Origin: Beroe forskalii
Taxonomy: Eukaryota > Ctenophora > Nuda > Beroida > Beroidae
Length of the DNA: 64,000 nucleotides
Direction of reading: 5' to 3'
Assembly (NCBI GenBank): GCA_011033025.1
Contig: WFMF01000005.1
Coordinates: forward strand, 868,001-932,000
Of this stretch, positions 3,415-17,883 are shown piece after piece. A program made the position numbers and the translations under genes. The notes beneath the pieces were generated by a model that worked only from the letters and a program-made list of their open reading frames with translations, was not told where the DNA came from and did no database searches. How positions within the stretch are numbered: the first letter of the stretch is position 1; each line of letters begins with the position of its first letter.

Positions 3415-6400
3415 ATGGAATCCGTAGCAAGGTTTCAAGATGGGTAAGGTTGCTCAAGTTCGGTATCGGATCAGGGACTTCAAGTTCAAGTTGAAAAGCA
3501 AAATCAGGAACAAGTCGAGCAAAGGTGCCAAATTATTTACTATAGAGGAACCAAGTAGCTTTGGAAAAAATGAAATGCGTCAAATATAATCAACTTTAGT
3601 CTCAGCAGAAATTATGATATACGAAAGTGCGACATTTGACCCCCCGACACTTGACCCCCCGACATTACATCCCCCGACACTACATCCCCCGACATTACAT
3701 CACCCGACACTTGACCCCCTGTAGTTACTATAAATGTGATAAACATGATTTGGATATTGCAATAATGTTATAATGTATAGTATAAATGTATATCACACAA
3801 AATTTTCACACAAAATATCGGATAAAAACACATGTAGTTGAAAGCAATTCCAGTCAGGAAGGTGTCAGCAGAAGGTCTGGAGTAGTTCCGTAGGAGATTC
3901 TGGATCCTGTCGTTCCTCCTTCTCTCCAGGGCAGATGACTTGAACACGTCTCCTCTGGTTACCCGGAACATCTTGGCTCTGGAGAGGTTCTGCTGCGTCT
4001 GAAGTGTCTTGAGGAGGGTCCAGATGGATGGGTGGTGGCCGGACAGCAGGGAGTTGAAGGAGTGGTGAAAGGACTCCAGGGCGTTGGTGGTGCGGGCAGA
4101 TCCAGCCGAAGCTCTGTCACGGACGTTCCACATGTGGAGAGGGAAGGTGGGGGGGAGTCGTCGTACTCCAGCTGGAGGTGAAGGGGGAGCAGGTTGGAGA
4201 GTAGGCATGGCAGGAGGGGTTGAAGAAGGAGCTGTTGGAGAAGATGAGGGCGCAGGCTGAAGGGGAGGAGGAGGATGAGCTGTTCCATCGAGGAGGGCTT
4301 GGTTTGCTTGATGGAGATGCTGGAAAGTTCTCTGGAAGCTGGAACTGGTAGTGGAAGTCATGGTGAACGATACTTTTTGGCTATCAAACCTTCCATATAT
4401 ACATTTACTGCTCGTGCATTAGCATGCACTTAACAATCGGTGTCTTATCCGGCACTCGTTGCTGATAGGGTTCATGTTGCTTGACACTACATCTCAGCTT
4501 AGTCGATGGTGCGGCACCTGAACCCCCGTTTCCAAGCACACTTGCATGGGAGTTTACTGTGCCTATAGAGGGGATGTGATGTCGGGGGGGTCAAATGTCG
4601 CACTTAGACACCTTAGTTAAGCCGCAGATCAGTGCGTTTGATCTATGTTTATTCATCGGGGGATGTAATGTCGGGGGGTCAAATGTCGCAGCAATCGTCG
4701 AACTGCGACGTTTGACCCCCCGCTTTTCTTTATAGATTTACTGTACTTTAGTAGGGGGTGAAGTGTCGGGGGATGTAGTGTCGGGGGATGTAATGTCGGG
4801 GGATGTAATGTCGGGGGGTCAAGTGTCCCTTTACCTGATATACGTAATATGAAACAGTTTCGAAATATTCAAATTATGCAGTAATGATTACATCAAACAC
4901 ATTCAAACACGTTTTATTTTTCAGTTTTCAGAGCTCAGCGACATTGCTTGTCTCAGCACAAGAAATCTGCTAACTTTGGTAAGTGTTAATTTTCATGTCT
5001 CATCGTTCATTACACTTCAATTTCAAATCATTACTAGGGGCCGTAACCATCTATAATAATTGATAGCGATAATTTTGATTTCTGTGACTCAAAACTAAGC
5101 CTGTCACTGCTTATTGTACGATAATGGCCCCTGCTGAGAAGTATTATAACTCACCCGTAACTCTCCCATCATAACCCACAGTGATAGCAGCGTGTTACCT
5201 GAGTGTGCTGTCTGCTTTCTCCTACTACAGAAGGACATGGTTCAACATTCCTGCTATTGTAGGCATTCTATTCCTAGCCTTTATACAGGTAATAAACTTT
5301 ATATCATGGTTCTGTTCTTGTTCTTGTGTAGGTATCTGAGAAAGGGCTACATTTAAGTGAAATCATGAAATTACAAGTTTGAGATAACTCTAAACATGCC
5401 ACGTTCTACCATTTCTATATCCATCATCGTAGTGACATTCTTTCAGCCCTCTCCCTCCCCCGATTCATCCCCCCTTCCCTAAATTCTCAATCACCCTCTC
5501 CCTCAAATCATTGACTCTGCACCCCCTCCCAGTTTACTCGGACACGTAAGCGAGAAGAGAAGCGTCTGAAGGCGCTGTCTGCGGACCCTACTAAGGTGGA
5601 AGTAGACGACTACTTGGCGTACATCTACCAGTTCCTACCACTCCGGTGTGGCTCCCGAGTGACTGGCTTCCTCTGTGAGACTCAGTTCCCGCGACCTCTC
5701 CTCAACGCCATTCTCACTGGTTACTGCTGGTTAGTTCCTAGATTTTACTTATCACGTTACTTTTTTTAAAGGTTTTTTAAGGTTTTCTTTTTTGCACGCA
5801 TTATTAGGCGACGTGTTATTTTGTGTTGGAAATTACGTGTCAGTTTGTGTTGGAAATTACGGTTCATTTTCTGAGCTTTTATGAAAGTTTCAAAACCTTT
5901 TCACTTCCTTCTAAATGTTTTTACTTAATTTGGTAGTGGTTCTTTATAGCTGATTTCTTTGCCTTCTACTCAAGTCGAAGGTTTGGAATTCCAATTAATT
6001 TTCCATACTATGGTAAGATGACTGTTGACAACAGATTACAACATGTATTTCCATCTCACGACCACACCCAACTAACAGGCTATTCGGAGTGAACCTAGAG
6101 GAGGCACTGGACGAATCATTCGAGGCTTACAAGACAATTGCTGAGTTCTTCCAGAGGGAACTGAAACCTACAGCGCGTCTCATAGAACCACATTCTCCTT
6201 TGGTGAGTGTTGGACAACTAGTTCTTGTTTTGGGAGATAGTAATTTTCTATCACGCCAAATGATTCCATTAACAGGCGTCAATAGTTCCCTTATAGCACT
6301 ATAACTCGTACTTGATTTGACGGTAAAATCTCGAGTAAAAAAACAAAGAATTCTGTTAAAAAGCCTGCTGAAGTCCATAGAAACTGCGAAAAACCACAAT

Positions 6401-9400
6401 GAAATCACTAATAAATCTCATTATTACAGTGATTATTGATTAAACATGAGAAACATTGATTTTAAGAAAAATTAGATAATTAGATCAACGATAAAATTTA
6501 GGATTCAGTAAAAGAGAAACTTTCAGTAAAAGAGAAAATTTATTTTTTGTTCATAATCAGATGTCTCAATCATTGGAAAGAGTACAAACGTCTTCACTAA
6601 ATTTGCAAACTTTAAATGATACGCATTCAAAATCAGAAGCTACGAATATCGTTTGACTGTCGTATTCATGTCACCAGCACGTTATGGTTCTAACTGTTTA
6701 TTTGTCCGTCGGTTATCAACGGCACTTCACATTCCTGTTCTTCACTCGTGTTCGATCGTCTGAAGACTCTCCTCACCTTCTCCACCAAGCTACTCACATC
6801 ACGTGACAAGTTGTGGCTCCTGAGAATCAGTATCACGGGGCAGAAGGCGGCGTTAGTTAGAGGCATAACCGTGCTGGCCACTGCTAGAATCCAGAAGTTA
6901 ACACTGATTAAGTGGAAGACTTCGATCATCGTGACGACAGCGGAGACACAGTTACAGAGGCAGAAGAGGAGAGATACTAGGGTGATGGTAAGGGTCATAG
7001 CACGCCTGTCCCTGTCCTCATCTTCCTGTCTTAGGAGGAGAATCACTGGGACCACCATGGAAATCATGACCAGGACGACTGGTACGAGGTAGGATATCAA
7101 GGCGAAGGTAGCAGTGGAGATCTCGTAAACCTTACGGAGGTTCCAGGAGGAGGCCAGAGTGTAGAGGAAGCTGCCGACAAAGGGGCGTTCTATGACAGCA
7201 AACAGCACTGTATGGTCGGGATAAGAGGGGTGTACGTCCAGCATTCCCTTCACATCGATAGCAAGGAGTGCCAGCCAAATGGCCTGGTGGAGGCAGATGG
7301 CAACAACAGCTACCGTAGCCTTGATGGAAGGTATCTTCACTATGACGATGTAGGTTCGTAGAGTGCTGAGTAGCAGGTTGTAGAAGATAGAGCAGGTGTT
7401 CCAGAAGATTCCCAGAGCGAAGAAAACCACCGTTCCGTTGAACACCGCCTCCCCCTCGTAGTAATCGTCGAGTTGGTCCGCTCTGATCAGGGTCCCAATC
7501 AGAGCCAAGTTTCCGAGTGCAGTCAGGGTATCGGCCACTGCGATGCAGAGGAAAAGAAGGGGAATGAGTCTACGGGGTTGTCGCCAGTAGAACCTTATTA
7601 CGAAGGTGTTCAGGACTATACTTTGGATGCAAAGAAAGATAATGAGTGGGGACAGTTTTACTAGTATTTCTGCTATGATGGGTCTGTTAGAGTCGTTTAG
7701 TGGGGCTGCGTTGACCAGTGGTAGCATGGTTTTTGTAATACAAGCAAAATGTGAAACACAAGTAACGTGAGGGGTAAGAATAACGGCACCGCTTGTATCA
7801 TGTTACTCAAGATCTGAATTCAAATAACATTATTTGACTCATGTTTCTTCAGAAACTCTGCTTGTTCCCTTCAGCTTTGAATGATTTGTACCGTACTCGT
7901 TAATGTGAAAAGATAATACTACCCTAGTTTAGATTAATCATAGAAGGAACCAAAGAAACCGCATCGACACGGCTCATCTTCGCATAACTTATCAGTTATC
8001 ATTGCTAAGACACATCCAGCTATCTCATGTCTATCACGCCTGGTGCTCCCTCTAACACATGCCTATCACGCCTGGTGCTCCCACTAACTCATTTCTATCA
8101 CGCCAGGTGCTCCCACTAACTCATGTCTATCACGCCAGGTGCTCCCACTAACACATGTCTATCACGCCTGGTGCTCCCACTAACTCATGTCTATCACGCC
8201 AGGTGCTCCCACTAACGCATTTCTATCACGCCAGGTGCTCCCTCTAACACATGCCTATCACGCCTGGTGCTCCCACTAACTCATTTCTATCACGCCAGGT
8301 GCTCCCACTAACTCATGTCTATCACGCCAGGTGCTCCCACTAACTCATGTCTATCACGCCTGGTGCTCCCACTAACTCATGTCTATCACGCCAGGTGCTC
8401 CCACTAACACATGTCTATCACGCCTGGTACTCCCACTAACACATGTCTATCACGCCTGGTGCTCCGACTAACACATGTCTATCACGCCTGGTGCTCCCAC
8501 TAACACATGTCTATCACGCCTGGTGCTCCCACTAACTCGTGTATATCACGCCGGGTGCTCCCACCAACACATGTCTATCACGCCTGGTGCTCCCACTAAC
8601 TCATGTCTATCACGCCTGGTGCTCCCACTAACACATGTCTATCACGCCTGGTGCTCCCACTAACACGTGTCTATTACGCCAGGTGCTCCCACTAACTCGT
8701 TTCTATCACGCCAGGTGCTCCCACTAACACATGTCTATCACGCCTGGTGCTCCCACTAACTCGTGTATATCACGCCGGGTGCTCCCACCAACACATGTCT
8801 ATCACGCCTGGTGCTCCCACTAACTCATGTCTATCACGCCTGGTGCTCCCACTAACACATGTCTATCACGCCTGGTGCTCCCACTAACTCATGTCTATCA
8901 CGCCAGGTGCTCCCACTAACACATGTCTATCACGCCTGGTACTCCCACTAACACATGTCTATCACGCCTGGTGCTCCGACTAACACATGTCTATCACGCC
9001 TGGTGCTCCCACTAACACATGTCTATCACGCCTGGTGCTCCCACTAACTCGTGTATATCACGTGCTCCCACCAACACATGTCTATCACGCCTGGTGCTCC
9101 CTCTAACTCATGTCTATCACGCCTGGTGCTCCCACTAACACATGTCTATCACGCCTGGTGCTCCCACTAACACGTGTCTATCACGCCAGGTGCTCCCACT
9201 AACTCGTTTCTATCACGCCAGGTGCTCCCACTAACTCATGTCTATCACGCCTGGTGCTCCCACTAACTCGTGTCTATCACGCCTGGTGATCCCACTAACT
9301 CGTGTCTATCACGCCAGGTGATCCCCTGTGACGGCAGAGTGCTCCACTACGGGCGGTGTGTGGACGGTGTTGTGGAACAAGTGAAAGGAGTCAGGTACCC

Positions 9401-12400
9401 GGTCGAGAGATTCCTGGGATCCTTTCCCAAACTGAAAGGTATGTGTTGCAGTGCATTTCATGTGTTGCGGTGAAGATTGTACATATTGCAGTTATCGACT
9501 TGTAAAACTCAAAAATTATTCTAATAGCGCCGATTAAAAATTCTGTCTGTATTCACAAAACCAATAATTTGATTAGGTCATCCTTTGCTGTAAAAGCCCG
9601 TGATATGAGAAAAAGTGTCCCTGTGGCAGTCGCAACTGACGTAACTTCACCTCGGACTTATCTAAATTGCAAAATGAAACGTTATGTTAATGCAACAAGA
9701 TTACCATTTTTTAGTACACATAGCTCATCACAATAATTTTCAAACAACGTAATCCAAACTAATTAATGAAAATACTTCCCGCATATTTTGAACCTTTGAA
9801 CTTCTAGTTCCTCTTAATTAAAGTTAACTTCTGCAGCTTGTCTTCTTAGTGTATTCAGTCATTCTTTTCTCTGAAAAATCCGCTGTTTCGTAGTTCAGCC
9901 AACAATCATAGTCACCCCGGCAGGAAAAGGCTTTGCAGTCGATATCTTCAAGGCATGTATTAATAGCACCCTCTTTCGTATAAGCGACATCTCCAACGAC
10001 TGTTTCTTCCCACTCGCATTTCTTACAAACTGGAACTTCGCAGAGCTCCCATCTGGGGGATGTTCCCTCACTGTTATAACACCACAGGGAACTATATCCA
10101 TCAGGGTTTCTACAGTAATTGTGATGTCCAAGTCCTTTTCCAACATAGTCCTCAGGGATGTAACTGTGTTCGTTGGGCGTTTGACTCGTCCATTTCTGAC
10201 ATGGATTTCCGGAGACAGTTTGATTCACAGTTCCCCGGTATTCTCCACCAGTGGTATCTTCTGGCTCACGGCATTCCTTTCCGAGGGTGTGATCCCAATA
10301 TTTGGAAGGCTCATCCCCGGCGTCGGTATGCTCCTTGCAAGCCAAAGTATAGACAGTATATTCCTTTTCGAATGCAGTACCATTTGAACTCAGCTTAAGC
10401 CAGCAACTCCTGTGCGTATCACAGAAGATACCCTCACAAGTGTCACTAATTTCACATTGTTTCATAGCATCTTCCTTGTTAAAGATGTGTGTACCTTGGA
10501 CTTTTTCAACCCACTCACATGTCATATTTGGCGAACTTTCATCTGTAAGCCTTTCAACTAGAGTAACACTATCAGCAGATGCAACTTCTGCATTGGAACA
10601 GTTGTTCTCCTTAGCATACACTCCAAATCTGAGGGTTTGTTCATCTTCAGGTGACAGGTTCAGCCAACAGAATTCGTCTCCATCGCATGTGACTCCTGCA
10701 CAGTTAGCATTAGTTTCACATTCTACGAAAGCATCAGCTTTATCCATCCCTTGGACACCCTCAGTGATGTTCCATTTGCAGTCCCTACAAAGTGGAACCT
10801 CGCAGATCTCCCATCGAGGGGAGGTCCCCTCACTGTTATAGCACCACAGTGAGCTGTATCCATCAGCGTTTCTGCAGTAATTGTGATTCCCGAGCCCTTT
10901 TCCCACATACTCCTCAGGAGTATAACTGTGCTCGTTGGGCGTTTGACTCGTCCATTTCTGACAAAGAAACCCAGATTTGGAGCGGTTGACGGAACCTCTA
11001 TAGGAAGTGCCTGTTGTGTCATCTGGGTCTCTGCACTCTTTCCCAACCTCGTTATCATAGAATGGAGCAAAGCCTTCATCACCCTTGGAGACCAAAGGAA
11101 AGTGAGCACTACTTGCAAGAGCACAAGTGCTCAACCCGTGGCCTCTCTTCATTTTGATGTACCCACCATCACCCCACCATTTCCCCCAGCTGTTACGAAC
11201 ATTCCAGTACTGTTCTCCATCCAAGATGCCATACCCCACCACATCTACTGCATGGTTCACTGAGGAGCAACCCTCTTCGTAATATACTCCAGCACCATAA
11301 GAGTAAAACGAGTTCGTGACACCAATGGCACAACTCATGACACCATATTTTGGGTTTGCAACAGCTCTCTTCAAGCCCTCATCCCCTCCCGATATGTAGG
11401 TGTAACCAATCAGTCGATATTCTCCCATGCCAGTCTGAGCGACTGTTTTGCAGGGACCGTCTACTCCGTGGTAAGCATCATAGTCTTCTGTGCGGGCTAT
11501 CATGTTGTCATTGGCCATGGTCCAGCTGTAAGCCTGGGTTGGCCAGCCTCCAGCACAACCATTCCCCCCTTCCTGTGACTCTGTCACGCAGTCCAGGTAA
11601 TGTTGCTCTGAAAGCGATACAACTTCATCCCTGTCCTTGTTGATCTGATACTCAAGAGGGGCTACTGCTCCGAATATCCAGCAACTCCCACACCCCCCTT
11701 GGTTCTTGACAGGAGGCAGCTTGTGGCTCCAATCCACTTCATCTCTTTCTTCTGGTGGGTCTTCCACTTCAGCCCGTTTCTCAAGGCCTAATGCGTCATC
11801 CTCGACATGGGAGGTATTGGTATTTGCCCCCAGATATGCTCGTCTTTCTGCTGGTGTCATCATAGAGAACTCATTCAAAACGGCAACCCATTTGGTGTTC
11901 GGATCGTCGTTGTGTTTCTTTACCATTTCGGCGAACCTTGAAAATTCGTCAAAATGTTGTTTCTTTTCGGATGATCCCCATTTGTCAGCGTTCTTTACTA
12001 CTCCCATAACTTCCAGTTCCGCTAGCTTTTCCTTGAATATAGCCTGTAGCTCCTTGGGTGTGTAACACAGCTGTTCTGTTGTAACGAGGAGTGTTAACAG
12101 AACCAACAAACTCGGTGGTGTCATCCTGTTTGAGCTGATATGTGAGTGATTTGGCTACGAAAAGTCATCTTCAGTGTTCAATTTGCATTAAAGAATAAAA
12201 TGTAAAAAAATAAAAAATACCAGTTGACTATTAACGTGAAATTAATACGTTGTGATTTTTTTCTGTTCGAGTAAAGGCAAGTTGAAGCAATAATGAAGAA
12301 TGTCAGGGATAACTAGGAATGAGCCGCATGATTACTTGATAAGGCGTATCAAATTATCAATACACAACGGTATCGAAAACGGGTGAACAGGTAAATTAGT

Positions 12401-14507
12401 TGAACAGGTAAATTAGCGGTTTATTAGTTGGTTTATTGATAAGTTGATAAAAGCTGACTAAGGACTAAAAGACGATGTCAAAAGGCACCGCATTGGTAAG
12501 TTATCTTACCAATTGTTTACAATAAAACTCACGAAACATCTGTTTCATGCTCAGTGGAAGGGCAGTGCTCCTGTGATCAATTGTCTACTGTCTAGTTACT
12601 ATTGTCTTGTAGTATATTGTCTTCTATTAGAAATTTCCGGCAGTCGGGATAATAGAAATATGTAACAATTTCTTTCTTGTTTCCAGGGTTCAATGACTTG
12701 TTAAGTTATTGTCTAAGGCAATTGTCGTGCTTTCAAAAAGACTTATATCTATTCTTGTTGTTTTGACGCTAGTGCTCTTGTTTTGTCCATCGGAAGCAAT
12801 TTTCTTTTTGTCCTGGTTAACGTCTCCTGGGTAACTAGCAGTCATTCTTATCATAACACATAGGAATGGTGTTCGATACCATGAGGTCTATGCTTTCATA
12901 TCCTTCTCTCATGGGGCTCAAAAGCAAAATATCATATTTTAATGAACCCTCATCAGACACTAACAAACTTGTTAGACTACTTTTCCCTAAATGAACAACT
13001 GCCACAACTTCACTTTGAAGTATCATTGTACCTTTGTAATAACTTTGAGGTGAAGTTACGACGGTCGCGTTCTTTCTCAAATCACGGGTTTTGTAGTAGA
13101 GAATCGTCTACCGCCACTGAGGCTTGCCAGCCCCTTGATAATATAAAGTTGTAACCCTGAATCAACTCATATAAGTTAATCAATACTAAAAACCCTCAGA
13201 CCCCGAAGCAAACGATCTGTTTTACTGCGTGGTGTACCTAGCTCCGGGGGACTACCATCTCTTCCACAGCCCCTGCTCATGGACTGTTGACAAAGTCATT
13301 CACTTCCCTGGTAGGTTGAATATGTGTCAAATAGTGCTGACACTTGCACACATCAAGTTGTTAGATCTAAATACTGTACTTCTTTAGATTCAAAAGCGTA
13401 AAATTGTTGGACATACAATAAAAAATGAATTTGGGACTCCTCAGGAAGGGGCAAAGAATCATGAATTTGTTCCTAGATTTCCCTAATCCACCACCATTTT
13501 CCCAGGGACGCTGATGTCAGTGAACCCGTCCGTGTGTAAGTTGGTGCGTAACGTGCTGATCCTGAACGAGCGAGTGCTCCTGTCAGGGGAGTGGGAGCAC
13601 GGTTACTTCTCCTACACTGCAGTGGGTGCTACTAACGTCGGCTCTATCAAGATAAACTTCCTCCAGGTATGGAATGGGGTGCCCTACAATTGGGCTGGGG
13701 ATCTCATGGATGGTTAAACCAGATCCTCGTCGATTCCATCACCTTTCCTATCACCCTGAAAAATTCCGGGGTTTCGGCTGCTATTGTGGTAGTTATTTGG
13801 GCATGCTTCCAAACTACCTCTCTGTTTTTATTTATAGAATTGATTGAAAAAAGAGTCAGGGTTTAACTGAACCCCCTCCCAGGACAAGATCAAGACAAAC
13901 CAGGGGTTCCTCACCTTCGAGAAAGACACTGAGATAGAGGTCCTGCCCAAGCAGCACATGGACAGGGGCGAAATGGTGGGCGGCTTCAACTTTGGCTCAA
14001 CCATAGTCCTCATGTTCGAGGCTCCTCGATCTTTCCAGTTCAACTTCGCAGGTAAATTTACAATTCAGAGACAGGTCCAATTAGTGGTATGTGGCGCTTT
14101 TTGTTGATCAGTGATCAGCATTGAGATCTGAGCAGCATTTGTGAAGTTTAGAACTTTAGATTTTAACGAGCTTTCTCTTTTTGGGATGATCTTTCCTTGC
14201 TTCGTCATCGTTTTTTTAAATTTTTTCTAACCTTACCCATTCTCCAGCTGAGGAGACGGTTCGTCTGGGCCGGCCCCTGGGTCACATCACCACGTCCTCC
14301 TCCACGTCCACTGACGACATCCCCCTCACCGAATTCACCTCCCTCCTCCGAGGTCAGCCCTTCCTCCACCCTCCCCAACAGCAGGAATCATCCCTAGGGG
14401 AGGAGGAATCAGAGTTCACTTCAGACACAGACACTGAGTCTTCCAGCGAGGACTGCGAGTGGAGCGAATCATCAGGGTTCGTGGAGGGAAGTGGGGGTAC
14501 GAGTTGA
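3415..14507 (+). CDS. PISD: Phosphatidylserine decarboxylase, ten-exon model
   Basis: PISD makes phosphatidylethanolamine from phosphatidylserine, usually at the mitochondrial inner membrane. Exons by eye: 3415-3443 (least certain), 4932-4978, 5182-5288, 5533-5729, 6079-6202, 9318-9438, 13200-13310, 13506-13666, 13883-14051, 14248-14507. All phases agree and give about 441 residues (human about 409). A hydrophobic segment near residues 40-58 could be the membrane anchor. Family hallmarks follow in order: [18 protein letters not shown] (catalytic Asp about 173), [13 protein letters not shown] (His about 228 and 231), [11 protein letters not shown], and [14 protein letters not shown]. The FGST Ser (about 338) is where the proenzyme self-cleaves to form the pyruvoyl cofactor; the family norm is LGST. 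After the catalytic core there is an extra tail of about 70 residues rich in Ser, Asp and Glu. Introns 5 and 6 each hold an antisense intronless gene, and intron 1 holds a MULE. Identity is firm; exons 1 and 2 are tentative. Confidence 0.9.
3623..4835. mobile_element. MULE (Mutator-like) derivative, copy 1
   Basis: A 1.2-kb element bounded by TIRs built from short GACATTTGACCCCCCGACA-like words. It is flanked by a perfect 8-bp target duplication, TGATATAC, at 3615-3622 and 4836-4843. An 8-bp duplication and an internal remnant resembling the C-terminal end of MULE transposase both support Mutator-like origin; hAT elements also make 8-bp duplications. The subterminal regions are tandem arrays of the 15-17-bp word CATCCCCCGACATTA. 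It lies in intron 1 of the PISD model. A second copy is at 44166-45112. Confidence 0.75.
3768..4361 (-). pseudogene. MULE transposase C-terminal remnant with proline-rich front
   Basis: A 197-codon open frame inside MULE copy 1. Residues about 68-175 resemble the end of MULE transposases, with [13 protein letters not shown], a [13 protein letters not shown] block and [12 protein letters not shown]. These correspond to the family pattern of an NN-E-WH segment followed by HP-IW. The catalytic DDE part is absent. Residues about 25-67 are low-complexity proline, serine and alanine, where copy 2 instead has normal transposase-like sequence (YFERTWIG), so the front here is replaced or degraded. It cannot encode a working transposase. 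The open frame may be partly maintained by base composition. Confidence 0.6.
6539..6544 (-). terminator. AATAAA polyadenylation signal for the nested receptor
   Basis: TTTATT on the plus strand reads AATAAA on the minus strand, about 150 bases past the stop of the 7TM receptor gene. Position and orientation suit its mRNA 3' end. The hexamer alone is weak evidence in this AT-rich intron. Confidence 0.35.
6690..7727 (-). CDS. Divergent rhodopsin-type 7TM receptor, intronless
   Basis: One 345-codon open frame with seven hydrophobic segments at roughly residues 22-47, 56-81, 99-130, 137-158, 206-232, 246-270 and 278-302. Class-A-like marks are visible: Asn40 in TM1, Asp66 in TM2 (VADTL), an LRT triplet near 123-125 where DRY is usual, and an Asn in TM7 ([10 protein letters not shown]) near the NPxxY position. 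The extracellular N terminus is short, with one N-glycosylation sequon (NDS); another (NGT) lies before TM3. The cytoplasmic tail is about 40 residues. The ligand cannot be guessed. The gene is single-exon and lies antisense within PISD intron 5, as expected for a retrocopy or a lineage-expanded receptor family. The start chosen is the only Met before TM1. A plasma-membrane receptor is likely; the subfamily is unknown. Confidence 0.85.
   Translation of the reverse strand: MLPLVNAAPLNDSNRPIIAEILVKLSPLIIFLCIQSIVLNTFVIRFYWRQPRRLIPLLFLCIAVADTLTALGNLALIGTLIRADQLDDYYEGEAVFNGTVVFFALGIFWNTCSIFYNLLLSTLRTYIVIVKIPSIKATVAVVAICLHQAIWLALLAIDVKGMLDVHPSYPDHTVLFAVIERPFVGSFLYTLASSWNLRKVYEISTATFALISYLVPVVLVMISMVVPVILLLRQEDEDRDRRAMTLTITLVSLLFCLCNCVSAVVTMIEVFHLISVNFWILAVASTVMPLTNAAFCPVILILRSHNLSRDVSSLVEKVRRVFRRSNTSEEQECEVPLITDGQINS
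8019..9317 (+). repeat. 32-bp minisatellite, about 41 units, ending at a splice acceptor
   Basis: Units read approximately CACTAACTCATGTCTATCAC followed by GCCAGGTGCTCC, repeated head to tail with one short unit near 9060. The array runs to the acceptor AG at 9316-9317 of PISD exon 6. The last unit continues into the exon as GTGATCCC, matching the GGTGATCCC and GGTGCTCCC of earlier units. Each unit therefore contains a branch-point-like CTAAC, an AG (or variant) at suitable distance, and the first exon bases. Roughly a dozen units keep CCAG; most carry CCTGG or CCGGG, which removes the AG. Short open frames within it are accidental. Confidence 0.9.
9824..12124 (-). CDS. Secreted papain-family cysteine protease with kringle and PAN-like modules
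   Basis: A 766-codon intronless gene, antisense in PISD intron 6. Layout: signal peptide (1 to about 19); I29-type inhibitory propeptide (about 25-100); papain-like C1 domain (about 128-345); kringle (364-446); PAN-like Cys module (449-509); second such module (536-596); kringle (618-700); third module (703-764). Catalytic residues are present: Gln142, Cys148 in [10 protein letters not shown], His291 in [11 protein letters not shown] and Asn311 in RNSWGKWWG. The two kringles are near-identical in their cores ([30 protein letters not shown]), indicating a recent internal duplication. The propeptide suggests a secreted zymogen, with the C-terminal modules tethering it to a surface or matrix protein. 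Papain proteases normally end at the catalytic domain, so the C-terminal extension is the odd part. The initiating Met opens directly into the signal peptide. Confidence 0.88.
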   Translation of the reverse strand: MTPPSLLVLLTLLVTTEQLCYTPKELQAIFKEKLAELEVMGVVKNADKWGSSEKKQHFDEFSRFAEMVKKHNDDPNTKWVAVLNEFSMMTPAERRAYLGANTNTSHVEDDALGLEKRAEVEDPPEERDEVDWSHKLPPVKNQGGCGSCWIFGAVAPLEYQINKDRDEVVSLSEQHYLDCVTESQEGGNGCAGGWPTQAYSWTMANDNMIARTEDYDAYHGVDGPCKTVAQTGMGEYRLIGYTYISGGDEGLKRAVANPKYGVMSCAIGVTNSFYSYGAGVYYEEGCSSVNHAVDVVGYGILDGEQYWNVRNSWGKWWGDGGYIKMKRGHGLSTCALASSAHFPLVSKGDEGFAPFYDNEVGKECRDPDDTTGTSYRGSVNRSKSGFLCQKWTSQTPNEHSYTPEEYVGKGLGNHNYCRNADGYSSLWCYNSEGTSPRWEICEVPLCRDCKWNITEGVQGMDKADAFVECETNANCAGVTCDGDEFCWLNLSPEDEQTLRFGVYAKENNCSNAEVASADSVTLVERLTDESSPNMTCEWVEKVQGTHIFNKEDAMKQCEISDTCEGIFCDTHRSCWLKLSSNGTAFEKEYTVYTLACKEHTDAGDEPSKYWDHTLGKECREPEDTTGGEYRGTVNQTVSGNPCQKWTSQTPNEHSYIPEDYVGKGLGHHNYCRNPDGYSSLWCYNSEGTSPRWELCEVPVCKKCEWEETVVGDVAYTKEGAINTCLEDIDCKAFSCRGDYDCWLNYETADFSEKRMTEYTKKTSCRS

Positions 14508-14967
14508 GCAGCGGGAGACTGGGAGTATGAGTATCGTACATCCCAGATCTTGATAAACGTTGCAGAGTTGGACTGTGTGTCGTGTGGGTGCCACACTCGA
14601 CACCTTGTTTGCAGAGACTGATAGTTTATAGTGGTCCAAGAAACAGAGAAGGTTGGAAGAGCTGATACGTGTATAAACTGTGACGTATCTCAAGGAGACA
14701 AAGACTGGTTTTATGGTTCGCAGACCATTTTTATTCCTCTAAGGGATCGCTGAAGAAACAGTTATGGGGTGGGTGGTATTAACTAAAAATAGAATAATTT
14801 TAATCAATGACAAACATGTTATCATAGAATTATTCTTTTAAAATGACATCAAGGATTTTTAATTTTTATATTTATTGATCCAGGATAAATCATTTCATCA
14901 TATATGATACTCTTTGATAGAATTTGACTGTATTTGATTTCCCTTACACCTAATTAATACGTTCTTT

Positions 14968-14973
14968 AATAAA
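14968..14973 (+). terminator. AATAAA polyadenylation signal of PISD
   Basis: AATAAA lies about 460 bases after the PISD stop and is followed within 30 bases by a GT-rich stretch (TTTGCGTGGTGTCTG), the usual arrangement for an animal mRNA 3' end. Confidence 0.55.
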
Positions 14974-16100
14974 GTTTGCGTGGTGTCTGAGAATGTTCTT
15001 GTACGTGCACGTCAGTTTTACGTGCGTCATCTGATACTGATACACATGCGTAAACGATGCTCAGAATTCTCATTCTCGCAGTCGCGACACCTGTATATTG
15101 CTTTTAATGTAAATGGTTTTAATTTGACGCAGTAATTTATTATTATCAATGTATCATTGAGAGGAACGCGGAATATACCTTCGGGGGACTCTGCAGTAAT
15201 TCGCTCGTAAATCCGTATGGCTAGTGATTTCAAATTCACCAATCAGAAGCCTTTTGGAAATGATGATTATAATTGCATATGATTATATTTATTGAACTTG
15301 AAGTGGATTGAATGGATTTCGATTTCAACTCACCTTTTAATTCTTGATTAATATTATGAAAAGCATAACTGATACTGATAGGATTTTGATACTGATACAG
15401 TAAAGAAGCTGCATTCTGCAACTGCAGTTGAACTTGAATTGTGAACATGAACATGACACCCGATGAAATGTCAAATATTAACCAAGAAATTTAATTGTAT
15501 CAATTACAATAGATGAATTGAATTTTATTAAGTGAATGCCTAAATTGAAATGTGTCCAGTGTCTAAAAAAATCTCGATAATTTTATTATTTTATATTTTG
15601 CAAATTTTTTCATGTGTTGATTTTGAAAAAGCTGTGTTTAAATGCTCAAGAAATAAGATTTACCCATATGTGTGCAGACCGCTCGATTGAAAACGACGCA
15701 CGAAATTGTGTGCTTTTGACGGAATTAATATAGAAAGTTGAAGCGCGGCGCGCAGAGGAAATCCGCACGTCTTTATGAATATGATTATCGAGGCCTCTGT
15801 CTATGGAGCGGTCCGCAAACATGCGTTTCAATTTCGCCGAATCTATCAGTGGGACTGGGACCGTGGTTGCTAAACGTGTGGATACTTTAACTAATTACAT
15901 TAGTAATTTAAGGGAATGCTGGAATTGTCGTACAATGTATGACCCGCTGACGCCAGCCGCTGAGAATCAGCGCGGCGCTGATTTGTGATTCTCGAGAGGG
16001 TGTCAACGTCAGACAATACTGGAATAGATTTTAAGATTTCCAGCGCGTGTTGGTGCACTGTGCAGACTGCACTTTCAGGAGTTTTTAAACCGAGTTTTAT
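14974..16100. other. AT-rich intergenic stretch
   Basis: No gene recognised; only short random open frames. Near 15660-15840 there is a poor inverted similarity around a GAGCGGTC(C/T)GCA word, which may be the edge of the GC-rich dispersed repeat that follows. Confidence 0.5.
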
Positions 16101-16760
16101 ATCTTCATTCGACGGACGTTGCCCCGTCTATTTCTTCTGACTGGATGGCTATCAAGTTTGCTAAACACGTATATCCCTGTGTGGCTCGCGCGGCGCGCTT
16201 CCCCAGCACAGGGGAACTGGAAGCGTGTCCCGTGTGTGTCCCGTAGGGAAGCGCGCGGCGCGTACACACACCTATGCGGGCTTAGGAACTATCTAGTGCA
16301 GAGGTTGCAAACTAGTGACGTCTTGTCAGACGTTGTCTGACGCGCCCGCCGAAGGCGTAGGGGTCAGACATCGGGTCAGTCTCCCATATAAACGGGAGCC
16401 TTCATTATCTATGACAATGACGTCACTCAGAAAAATATAATTAAGCGCATCTGGCGCTTTAAGCAGTAAGGTTAGAGTTCTGGTTAGGGTCAGGATTTGT
16501 TAGGTTTAGGATAAGGATTAAGGTTAGGGTTTTGGTTAGGACAATGGTTAGGTTTAGGATGCAGAAAAATTGACGTTTAGATCTGTGACGTCACTCAGAG
16601 CCGTTTATATGGGAGACATACCAGACATCGTTTGCCACATGCTATGTGTCCCTGTTTGTTCGCGCGCGCGCGCGCGCGCCTTTTCTTCGAAAAGTCACAA
16701 ACAGGGCCACACAACTTTGGTATTCCCGCCAAAAACTCGGGGCGCATTTTTTACGCCCCG
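16100..16760. repeat. GC-rich dispersed repeat, copy A
   Basis: A GC-rich block with many GGCGCGC words inside AT-rich DNA. About 40 bases from 16108 (CGACGGACGTTGCCCCGTCT and what follows) recur on the opposite strand near 41870-41910. An internal inverted pair around CGCGGCGCGCTTCCC and GGGAAGCGCGCGGCGCG lies at about 16190-16265. Related blocks are at 26480-27070 and 41780-42130. No coding capacity is recognised; probably a non-autonomous element or its remains. Confidence 0.55.
16379..16617. mobile_element. Small inverted-repeat element with telomere-like interior
   Basis: A 17-bp perfect inverted repeat, GTCTCCCATATAAACGG (16379-16395) and its complement (16601-16617), encloses about 205 bases. 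The interior (about 16468-16560) is a degenerate run of GGTTAGGG-like words. TGACGTCACTCAG occurs near both ends in the same orientation. It looks like a MITE nested in the GC-rich repeat; no target duplication was seen. Confidence 0.55.
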
Positions 16761-17112
16761 ATTAAGTGATTAAAACCATGTTCGGAAATAATTGCCTGCG
16801 ACGCGCACATCTCAGCAGAATTCTATGAAATTTACGCCGCGCATTCTCAATGGATACACTCAAGCTTCATATAACTTTGCAAATATTGGACATGCCGGAA
16901 CATGCCTAAGGCATGAGGCTTCTCAGAGGAAAATGGTGAGTCGTTGTATATTCGTATATTATATTGTGCTTGTCGCTTGCATTGTAATTTTTGTCGATGA
17001 CCGTAACCCCGTTGTCAATCAGTTAATGATTATCTAATTCGCTGAATAAATGTAATAAGATGATCTAATTGATGCCACTGTACTAATTGATGTCCTGCCG
17101 GCAAAGATGCTT

Positions 17113-17880
17113 ACTCTGATGGCCCGATGCCGGGATAATACTCACTCACTCTGACCCCGGGATAATACTCACTCTGATGCCGGGAAAGTACTCACTCTGA
17201 TGCCGGGATAATACTCACTCTGATGCCGGGATAATACTCACTCTGATGCTGGGATAATACTCACTCTGATGCCGGGATAATACTCACTCTGATGCCGGGA
17301 TAATACTCACTCTGATGCCGGGATAGTACTCACTCTGATGCCGGGATAGTACTCACTCTGATGCCGGGAAAGTACTCACTCTGATGCCTGGATAATACTC
17401 ACTCTGATGCCGGGATAATACTCACTCTGATGCCGGGATAATACTCACTCTGATGCCGGGATAGTACTCACTCTGATGCCGGGATAGTACTCACTCTGAT
17501 GCCGGGAAAGAACTCACTCTGATGCCGGGATAGTACTCACTCTGATGCCGGGAAAGGACTCACTCTGATGCCGGGATAATACTCACTCTGATGCCGGGAT
17601 AGTACTCACTCTGATGCCTGGATAATACTCACTCTGATGCCGGGATAGTACTCACTCTGATGCCGGGATAGTACTCACTCTGATGCCGGGAAAGTACTCA
17701 CTCTGATGCCGGGATAATACTCACTCTGATGCCGGGATAATACTCACTCTGATGCCGGGATAGTACTCACTCTGATGCCGGGATAGTACTCACTCTGATG
17801 CCGGGATAGTACTGATCACTCTGATGCCGGGATAGTACTCACTCTGATGCCAGGATAGTACTCACTCTGATGCCGGGATA
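17113..17880. repeat. 23-bp minisatellite, about 33 units
   Basis: Head-to-tail copies of ACTCACTCTGATGCCGGGAT plus AAT or AGT, with few substitutions. The array is interrupted at 17881-20634 by an inserted foldback element, and part of a unit (ACTCACTCTGATGC) resumes directly after it. The array is therefore older than that insertion. Confidence 0.92.
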
Positions 17881-17883
17881 GTA

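Follow-up and report, generated by a model that had tools for sequence, protein, structure and literature searches.

The stretch of DNA analysed here, referred to as the window, comprises 64,000 nucleotides of the ctenophore Beroe forskalii (C580:868001-932000) and belongs to an assembly of 216 Mb in 1134 contigs, which was searched as a whole. On its + strand the window carries the gene PISD, one intron of which ends in a minisatellite whose units copy the intron-exon junction itself. Eight exons, in a model without the 5' end of the gene, read as one open frame of 399 residues with a terminal stop and are located at 5231-5288, 5533-5729, 6079-6202, 9318-9438, 13200-13310, 13506-13666, 13883-14051 and 14248-14504. 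The third of these ends in phase 0 at CCTTTG/GTGAGTG (the slash marks the splice junction), the frame is open through the join and the protein aligns to ctenophore PISD; the fourth, of 121 nt, encodes the Asp of the VIPCDGR motif and is followed by the donor AAAG/GTATGTG, and the seventh carries an FGST motif where human PISD has LGST. The Asp of DGR, which we take to be the catalytic residue, is aligned with the Asp of a solved PSD enzyme and is residue 131 of the true product, 126 residues preceding the junction of the array-bearing intron. Among the matches listed, the closest to the protein is PISD of Bolinopsis microptera (77% identity, 82% of the query covered), followed by four proteins at 60-67% and then, within the best 120 of 3957 matches, mostly by proteins at 34-47%. 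Within the intron in question (6203-9317, +), the array occupies the 3' end, and an open reading frame (ORF) on the antisense strand lies in the middle.

Cut on a shared motif, the array extends over 8020-9326 (+) and consists of 41 units, each of which measures 32 bp except unit 33, with 27 bp; Tandem Repeats Finder (TRF) reports it at 8026-9325 with a period of 32, 40.8 copies, 91% matches and a score of 2096. A unit is made up of CTAAC or a variant of it, 18 intron bases to CCAG or a variant, eight bases like the start of the exon and one further base; the intron part, 23 nt in all, copies the 3' end of the PISD intron. The branch-point-like motif, which the original prediction had placed in each unit as CTAAC, has this form in 37 of the 41, while the other four read CCAAC (three) and CTATC (one). 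The estimate of roughly a dozen upstream units with CCAG proved right, AG being present at its position in 12 of the 40 upstream units, replaced by TG in 25 and by GG in two, and deleted in one. Unit 41 is the authentic junction, CTAACTCGTGTCTATCACGCCAG/GTGATCCCC; its 3' splice site is located at 9295-9317 (+), with CTAAC at 9295, about 20 nt before the AG at 9316-9317, and this AG is, as had been proposed, the acceptor of the exon holding the Asp, which begins at 9318. That exon does not reach 9450, as had been supposed; it stops at 9438, and 9439-9450 is intron. Its first bases had been said to match every unit, but the exact exon start GTGATCCC recurs upstream in unit 40 alone (9263-9294, +), which has TG at the AG position, whereas the remaining 38 upstream units of 32 bp match at seven of the eight bases (GTGCTCCC, 34 units) or at six (GTACTCCC and GTGCTCCG, two units each). 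Minisatellites of tandemly copied intron-exon boundaries have been named mirages in amphioxus (PMC3087553), and the PISD array has the same two traits: its units span the intron-exon boundary of the host gene, and the AG is kept in some of them and not in all.

Among the 13 CCAG acceptors, the AG of the last unit is the only one that keeps the frame L/VIPCDGR. The 12 upstream ones are decoys distributed over 8105-9221 (+), in units 3, 4, 6, 7, 9, 10, 12, 21, 22, 28, 37 and 38, and the AG decoys nearest the exon stand 3, 4 and 13 units from the authentic unit. The expectation that their use would truncate PISD is borne out by translation for 12 of 12, each of which, if joined, gives 14 foreign residues and TAA as the 15th codon.

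Regarding the origin of the array, a 31-base pattern of the unit, searched with up to three mismatches in the 216-Mb assembly, occurs at 40 places in PISD and at five places on a second contig, C207, and nowhere else, with 0 control matches; since the pattern is confined to the PISD locus and C207, the array is a local and not a dispersed repeat. The V-I-P codons at the start of the exon correspond to V-I-P in Bolinopsis PISD too, and because this tripeptide is common to the two proteins and exon-start-like bases are part of the unit, it is most likely the array that copied the exon and not the reverse. The 23 intron bases and eight exon-like bases of the unit, its confinement and the V-I-P codons uphold the earlier suggestion that the splice junction gave rise to the array. 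Larger segments have been copied as well: units 10-23 recur as units 26-39 at an identity of at least 31/32 (the 27-bp unit being allowed), and five-unit blocks recur at lags of 6, 7 and 9.

The second copy, on C207 at about 125-133 kb (-; L009, L010), is aligned to window 8793-16010 at 90%. It repeats units 26-41 in identical order beside the same PISD exon, and the AG states agree where readable, unit 41 reading GCAG there; the two arrays differ by several small indels, 5 bp at unit 33 included. For the four exons downstream of the array exon, 224 codons were compared and six skipped for indels, giving 10 synonymous and 2 non-synonymous differences (synonymous divergence, dS, 0.067; non-synonymous divergence, dN, 0.004); for the protease gene nested in the next intron the values are dS 0.24 and dN 0.024. 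The divergence is mostly 5-13% in the PISD introns and 2% in the stretch downstream of the gene. The flanks of the C207 copy (9.3 kb on the left, about 1 kb on the right) match the window through short repeats alone, with no long match, and no second copy of window 6000-8030 was found in the assembly. The copy may be a residual haplotig with a misjoin or a partial segmental duplication; under either reading the join between array and exon predates the split of the C207 and window copies.

Two intronless ORFs lie antisense within the gene. The first (6690-7733, -; 347 residues), in the array-bearing intron, has the look of a seven-helix membrane protein as judged by eye and matches no Pfam family at an expectation value (E) of 0.001, the best being 0.14; its likely start is separated by about 290 bp from the array, which lies upstream of it. 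The second (9827-12145, -), in the next intron, encodes a papain-family protease with kringle domains (Pfam Peptidase_C1, E 9e-51; Kringle, E 2e-38). Downstream of the gene, dispersed repeats with dozens of matches across many contigs occupy 16363-17100, and a further array at 17144-17883, with GTGAGT in its unit (-), was rejected as a junction array, no exon being seen at its ends and no coding-scoring flank being present.

The occurrence of similar arrays was surveyed in 264 kb, composed of 20 pieces of 10 kb taken at regular steps of C580 plus the window, by considering non-overlapping arrays with a period of at least 9 and at least 2.8 copies. The 115 arrays obtained make up 16% of the bases, and 35 of them have a flank that scores as coding with a crude codon-usage detector trained on 10 long ORFs and the PISD coding sequence; 25 of the 35 were inspected (20 array ends, four further arrays and PISD), the other 10 including several G-rich flanks in L035. 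Outside PISD, junctions were read by eye from the frame and the AG or GT. Units spanning a junction are present in at least eight of the 115 arrays, that is PISD and seven others, on both the donor and the acceptor side. On the acceptor side are L027:449-1342 (45 bp), at a bHLH-PAS-like exon (PAS_11, E 8.6e-10, typed together with the preceding exon), L034:3498-3622 (44 bp), at one end of a Mind bomb SH3 repeat exon (E 5.7e-4, below the Pfam cut-off), and L037:8586-8825, flanked on either side by degenerate copies, with no Pfam match over the cut-off and decoys left uncounted. On the donor side are L034:3758-3887 (21 bp), at the opposite end of the same Mind bomb exon, L031:4454-4731 (47 bp; Mib_herc2, E 2.4e-8), L035:1555-2238 (102 bp, 8 donor copies), where 22 residues match HERC2 at E 2.6e-4 and no Pfam family is assigned, and L036:9107-9305 (36 bp, no Pfam family). 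L025:8826-9699 (-) can be considered a ninth, an array of donor-like units that begins at the GT and has little exon sequence in common; its exon has no Pfam family. In the junction arrays as read, the copy that fits a coding exon is the one adjoining the exon body. As to the L034 exon, splicing at its later donors would append in-frame repeats of 7 residues of the MSEMEKV type. Some further arrays are located just within introns and span no junction, as beside a dynein exon in L032 (DHC_N2, E 3.3e-33), and at L032:4720-4900 a short exon end and donor are apparently copied, with CAATTAACCTCCC repeats between.

The splice signal is retained in the decoys of L027 (AG in 18 of 18; units cut to 30-60 bp, 19.8 copies by TRF), L034 (acceptor AG 2/2, donor GT 4/5), L036 (GT 4/4), L035 (7/7) and L031 (5/5), which amounts to 40 of 41 over these six arrays. 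The cutting patterns used for L035 and L031 include splice-site bases, and changed copies could have escaped them; an off-donor pattern returns the same 8 copies in L035, and L031, cut into 6 copies, has 5.6 by TRF. In L025, GT is kept at 42 of 45 decoy positions, with 8 in-unit GCGGGA matches left out, and a coding-like exon has, behind its probably authentic donor, 41 decoy GTGAGG donors. The largest numbers of decoys with an intact signal in one intron are thus 42 donors (GT) and 18 acceptors (AG). Decoys are kept as a rule in the other arrays, and PISD is the exception. At three other mirage loci, no second copy of the array-bearing stretches was found in the assembly.

The number of junction arrays was compared with that expected by chance. 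At detector thresholds of 9, 12 and 15, exon-like segments give 1.32, 0.97 and 0.71 junctions per kb, and the product of this density and the summed periods predicts 5.9, 4.3 and 3.2 junction-spanning arrays, where 8 are seen (9 with L025); the Poisson probabilities of at least 8 are 0.24, 0.07 and 0.016, respectively. An enrichment of arrays at junctions is not firm (8 versus 3.2-5.9 expected), and random birth of arrays would nearly account for the count. Splice-junction mirages look common in this genome; if the sample, drawn from one contig, is representative, the eight junction arrays among 115 in 264 kb would correspond to about 6,500 mirages in 216 Mb. That ctenophore genomes could contain thousands of mirages, the spliceosome regularly taking the exon-proximal copy, is in our opinion an evenly balanced proposition.

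The PISD array is probably a mirage that developed locally out of the 3' splice site and is tolerated, with no function required of it. A 32-bp segment comprising the last 23 bases of the intron and the first 8 of the exon would have been duplicated in tandem, presumably through slippage or unequal exchange at the junction, and block duplications would then have spread the unit. Each copy would add a branch-point-like motif and in some units an AG, and the added copies would remain intronic because the exon-proximal one keeps defining the exon. The spliceosome most likely uses that copy by exon definition, the 121-nt exon being recognized together with its own donor; occasional decoy products may be cleared by nonsense-mediated decay, and the array could be tolerated as neutral minisatellite growth. 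Some points weigh against this explanation. In eight of the 12 decoys, those in units 4, 6, 10, 12, 22, 28, 37 and 38, a single one of the 23 intron bases departs from the authentic site, and the passing over of sites so nearly identical lacks an explanation. Moreover, it is from the reading frame that use of the exon-proximal AG is inferred, and C207 is a noisy witness, its array and two of its five PISD exons being interrupted by indels.

It is unlikely that the decoys act as a regulatory device, in which splicing to an upstream AG would give unproductive PISD mRNA and the level of PISD would be tuned by the composition of the array. The presence of 12 near-identical acceptors that all truncate the product would suit such a device, and minisatellite splice sites are reportedly usable in human IFI6; however, like arrays are found in genes unrelated to PISD, and their frequency does not clearly exceed chance. 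In addition, the mirages of amphioxus are reported without interference (PMC3087553).

The original prediction also held that decoy acceptors may be selected against, the AG being lost since units bearing it would be mis-spliced. The scarcity of AG with respect to other positions is true of the average, AG being retained in 0.30 of the upstream units (12/40) versus a mean of 0.77 for the other adjacent base pairs of the unit, but five of these 28 pairs are kept even less often. The A of the AG has been replaced in two distinct ways, by T and by G, and pair 10/26, at the edge of the longest block match (units 10-23 versus 26-39), differs just by the loss of AG (AG versus TG); these facts would be in line with selection. 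However, the AG state is equal in 12 of 14 pairs of that match, where pair 17/33 reflects a 5-bp deletion that took out a site already GG, and in 14 of 15 pairs of three shorter block matches, the exception being the deletion of unit 33 again. Because blocks are copied together with their AG state, few changes suffice for the 28 upstream units that have no AG, and decoys are retained in the other mirages, both in the six arrays counted above and in the donor array of L025. Selection against decoys in the PISD array is unsupported rather than excluded, and it is judged quite improbable.

A very unlikely alternative is that the CCAG/GT units are dual-specific sites, through which the intron would be removed stepwise via zero-length exons leaving no trace in the mRNA. 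AGGT is indeed present in 13 of the 41 units, that is in every CCAG unit, the authentic one included (13/13), but the usual donor consensus is GTRAGT, and the GT side of the units, GTGCTC, is a poor donor, unmatched to it at +4 to +6; furthermore, AG is missing from 28 of the 41 units. Sites of this type, AGGT, have been reported as a tandem array in human UBC (PMC10809524). Finally, an assembly artefact, or the insertion of a dispersed satellite next to the exon, is highly improbable: part-way through the array C207 gives way to sequence that shares no long match with the PISD locus, and its copy contains indels, but the unit includes exon bases and has no other location within three mismatches, and the array-exon join is repeated on two contigs whose PISD introns differ mostly by 5-13%.

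Mirages have been described so far in a few amphioxus genes, namely Adh3, BflGb6, BflGb9, TnC and PGBD5, according to the available parts of two articles (PMC3087553, PMC3902484); the second added the PGBD5 mirage and cites Adh and TnC. They affect the donor or the acceptor side, with AG or GT present in many copies and not in all (PMC3087553). Regular splicing was undisturbed in the reverse transcription polymerase chain reaction data for Adh3 and the globins (PMC3087553), and amphioxus mirages are reported not to disturb splicing in the later article as well (PMC3902484). The units of Adh3 measure 10-72 bp, and the two haplotypes of BflGb6 hold 6 and 3 of them, respectively (PMC3087553). Somatic instability is reported for Adh3. 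In ctenophores, the genome of Hormiphora is described as highly heterozygous, with genes nested in introns and a tandem-repeat content of 13% (PMC8527503), traits that fit the pattern seen here; the passages on this genome available from that article do not mention repeated splice junctions, and no title on them appeared among the articles searched on ctenophore minisatellites and on tandem repeats with introns or splicing in ctenophores or Mnemiopsis.

Mirages bear on the origin of introns from duplicated AG/GT. If the proposed reading is true, these arrays would offer a natural experiment in the choice of one site among many equals by exon definition, and they would continually provide material for new introns and repeat isoforms. 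If they are common in ctenophores, many native genes would have near-identical neighbouring splice sites to tell apart, and the proximity rule of exon definition could be tested by ordinary RNA sequencing.

The PISD array is of a kind known already, in amphioxus, and what is new is its presence in a distant phylum. As in amphioxus, it consists of tandem copies of a boundary with the splice signal in part of the units; in contrast, it belongs to a ctenophore and not to a cephalochordate, has 41 units versus the 6 and 3 of the BflGb6 haplotypes, carries a CTAAC-like motif in its units and lacks AG in 28 of 40 upstream units. Human UBC shares with it the tandem AGGT at unit borders (PMC10809524), but, in the parts of that article available, its units code for ubiquitin and vary in number among isoforms, whereas those of PISD are intronic and contain stops. 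Human IFI6 (6-16, G1P3) is similar in having a minisatellite with a splice site as its unit; it differs in that this is a donor minisatellite, reported as used, and PISD has an acceptor array; the L025 array, with 45 decoy donor positions, is the closer counterpart of IFI6.

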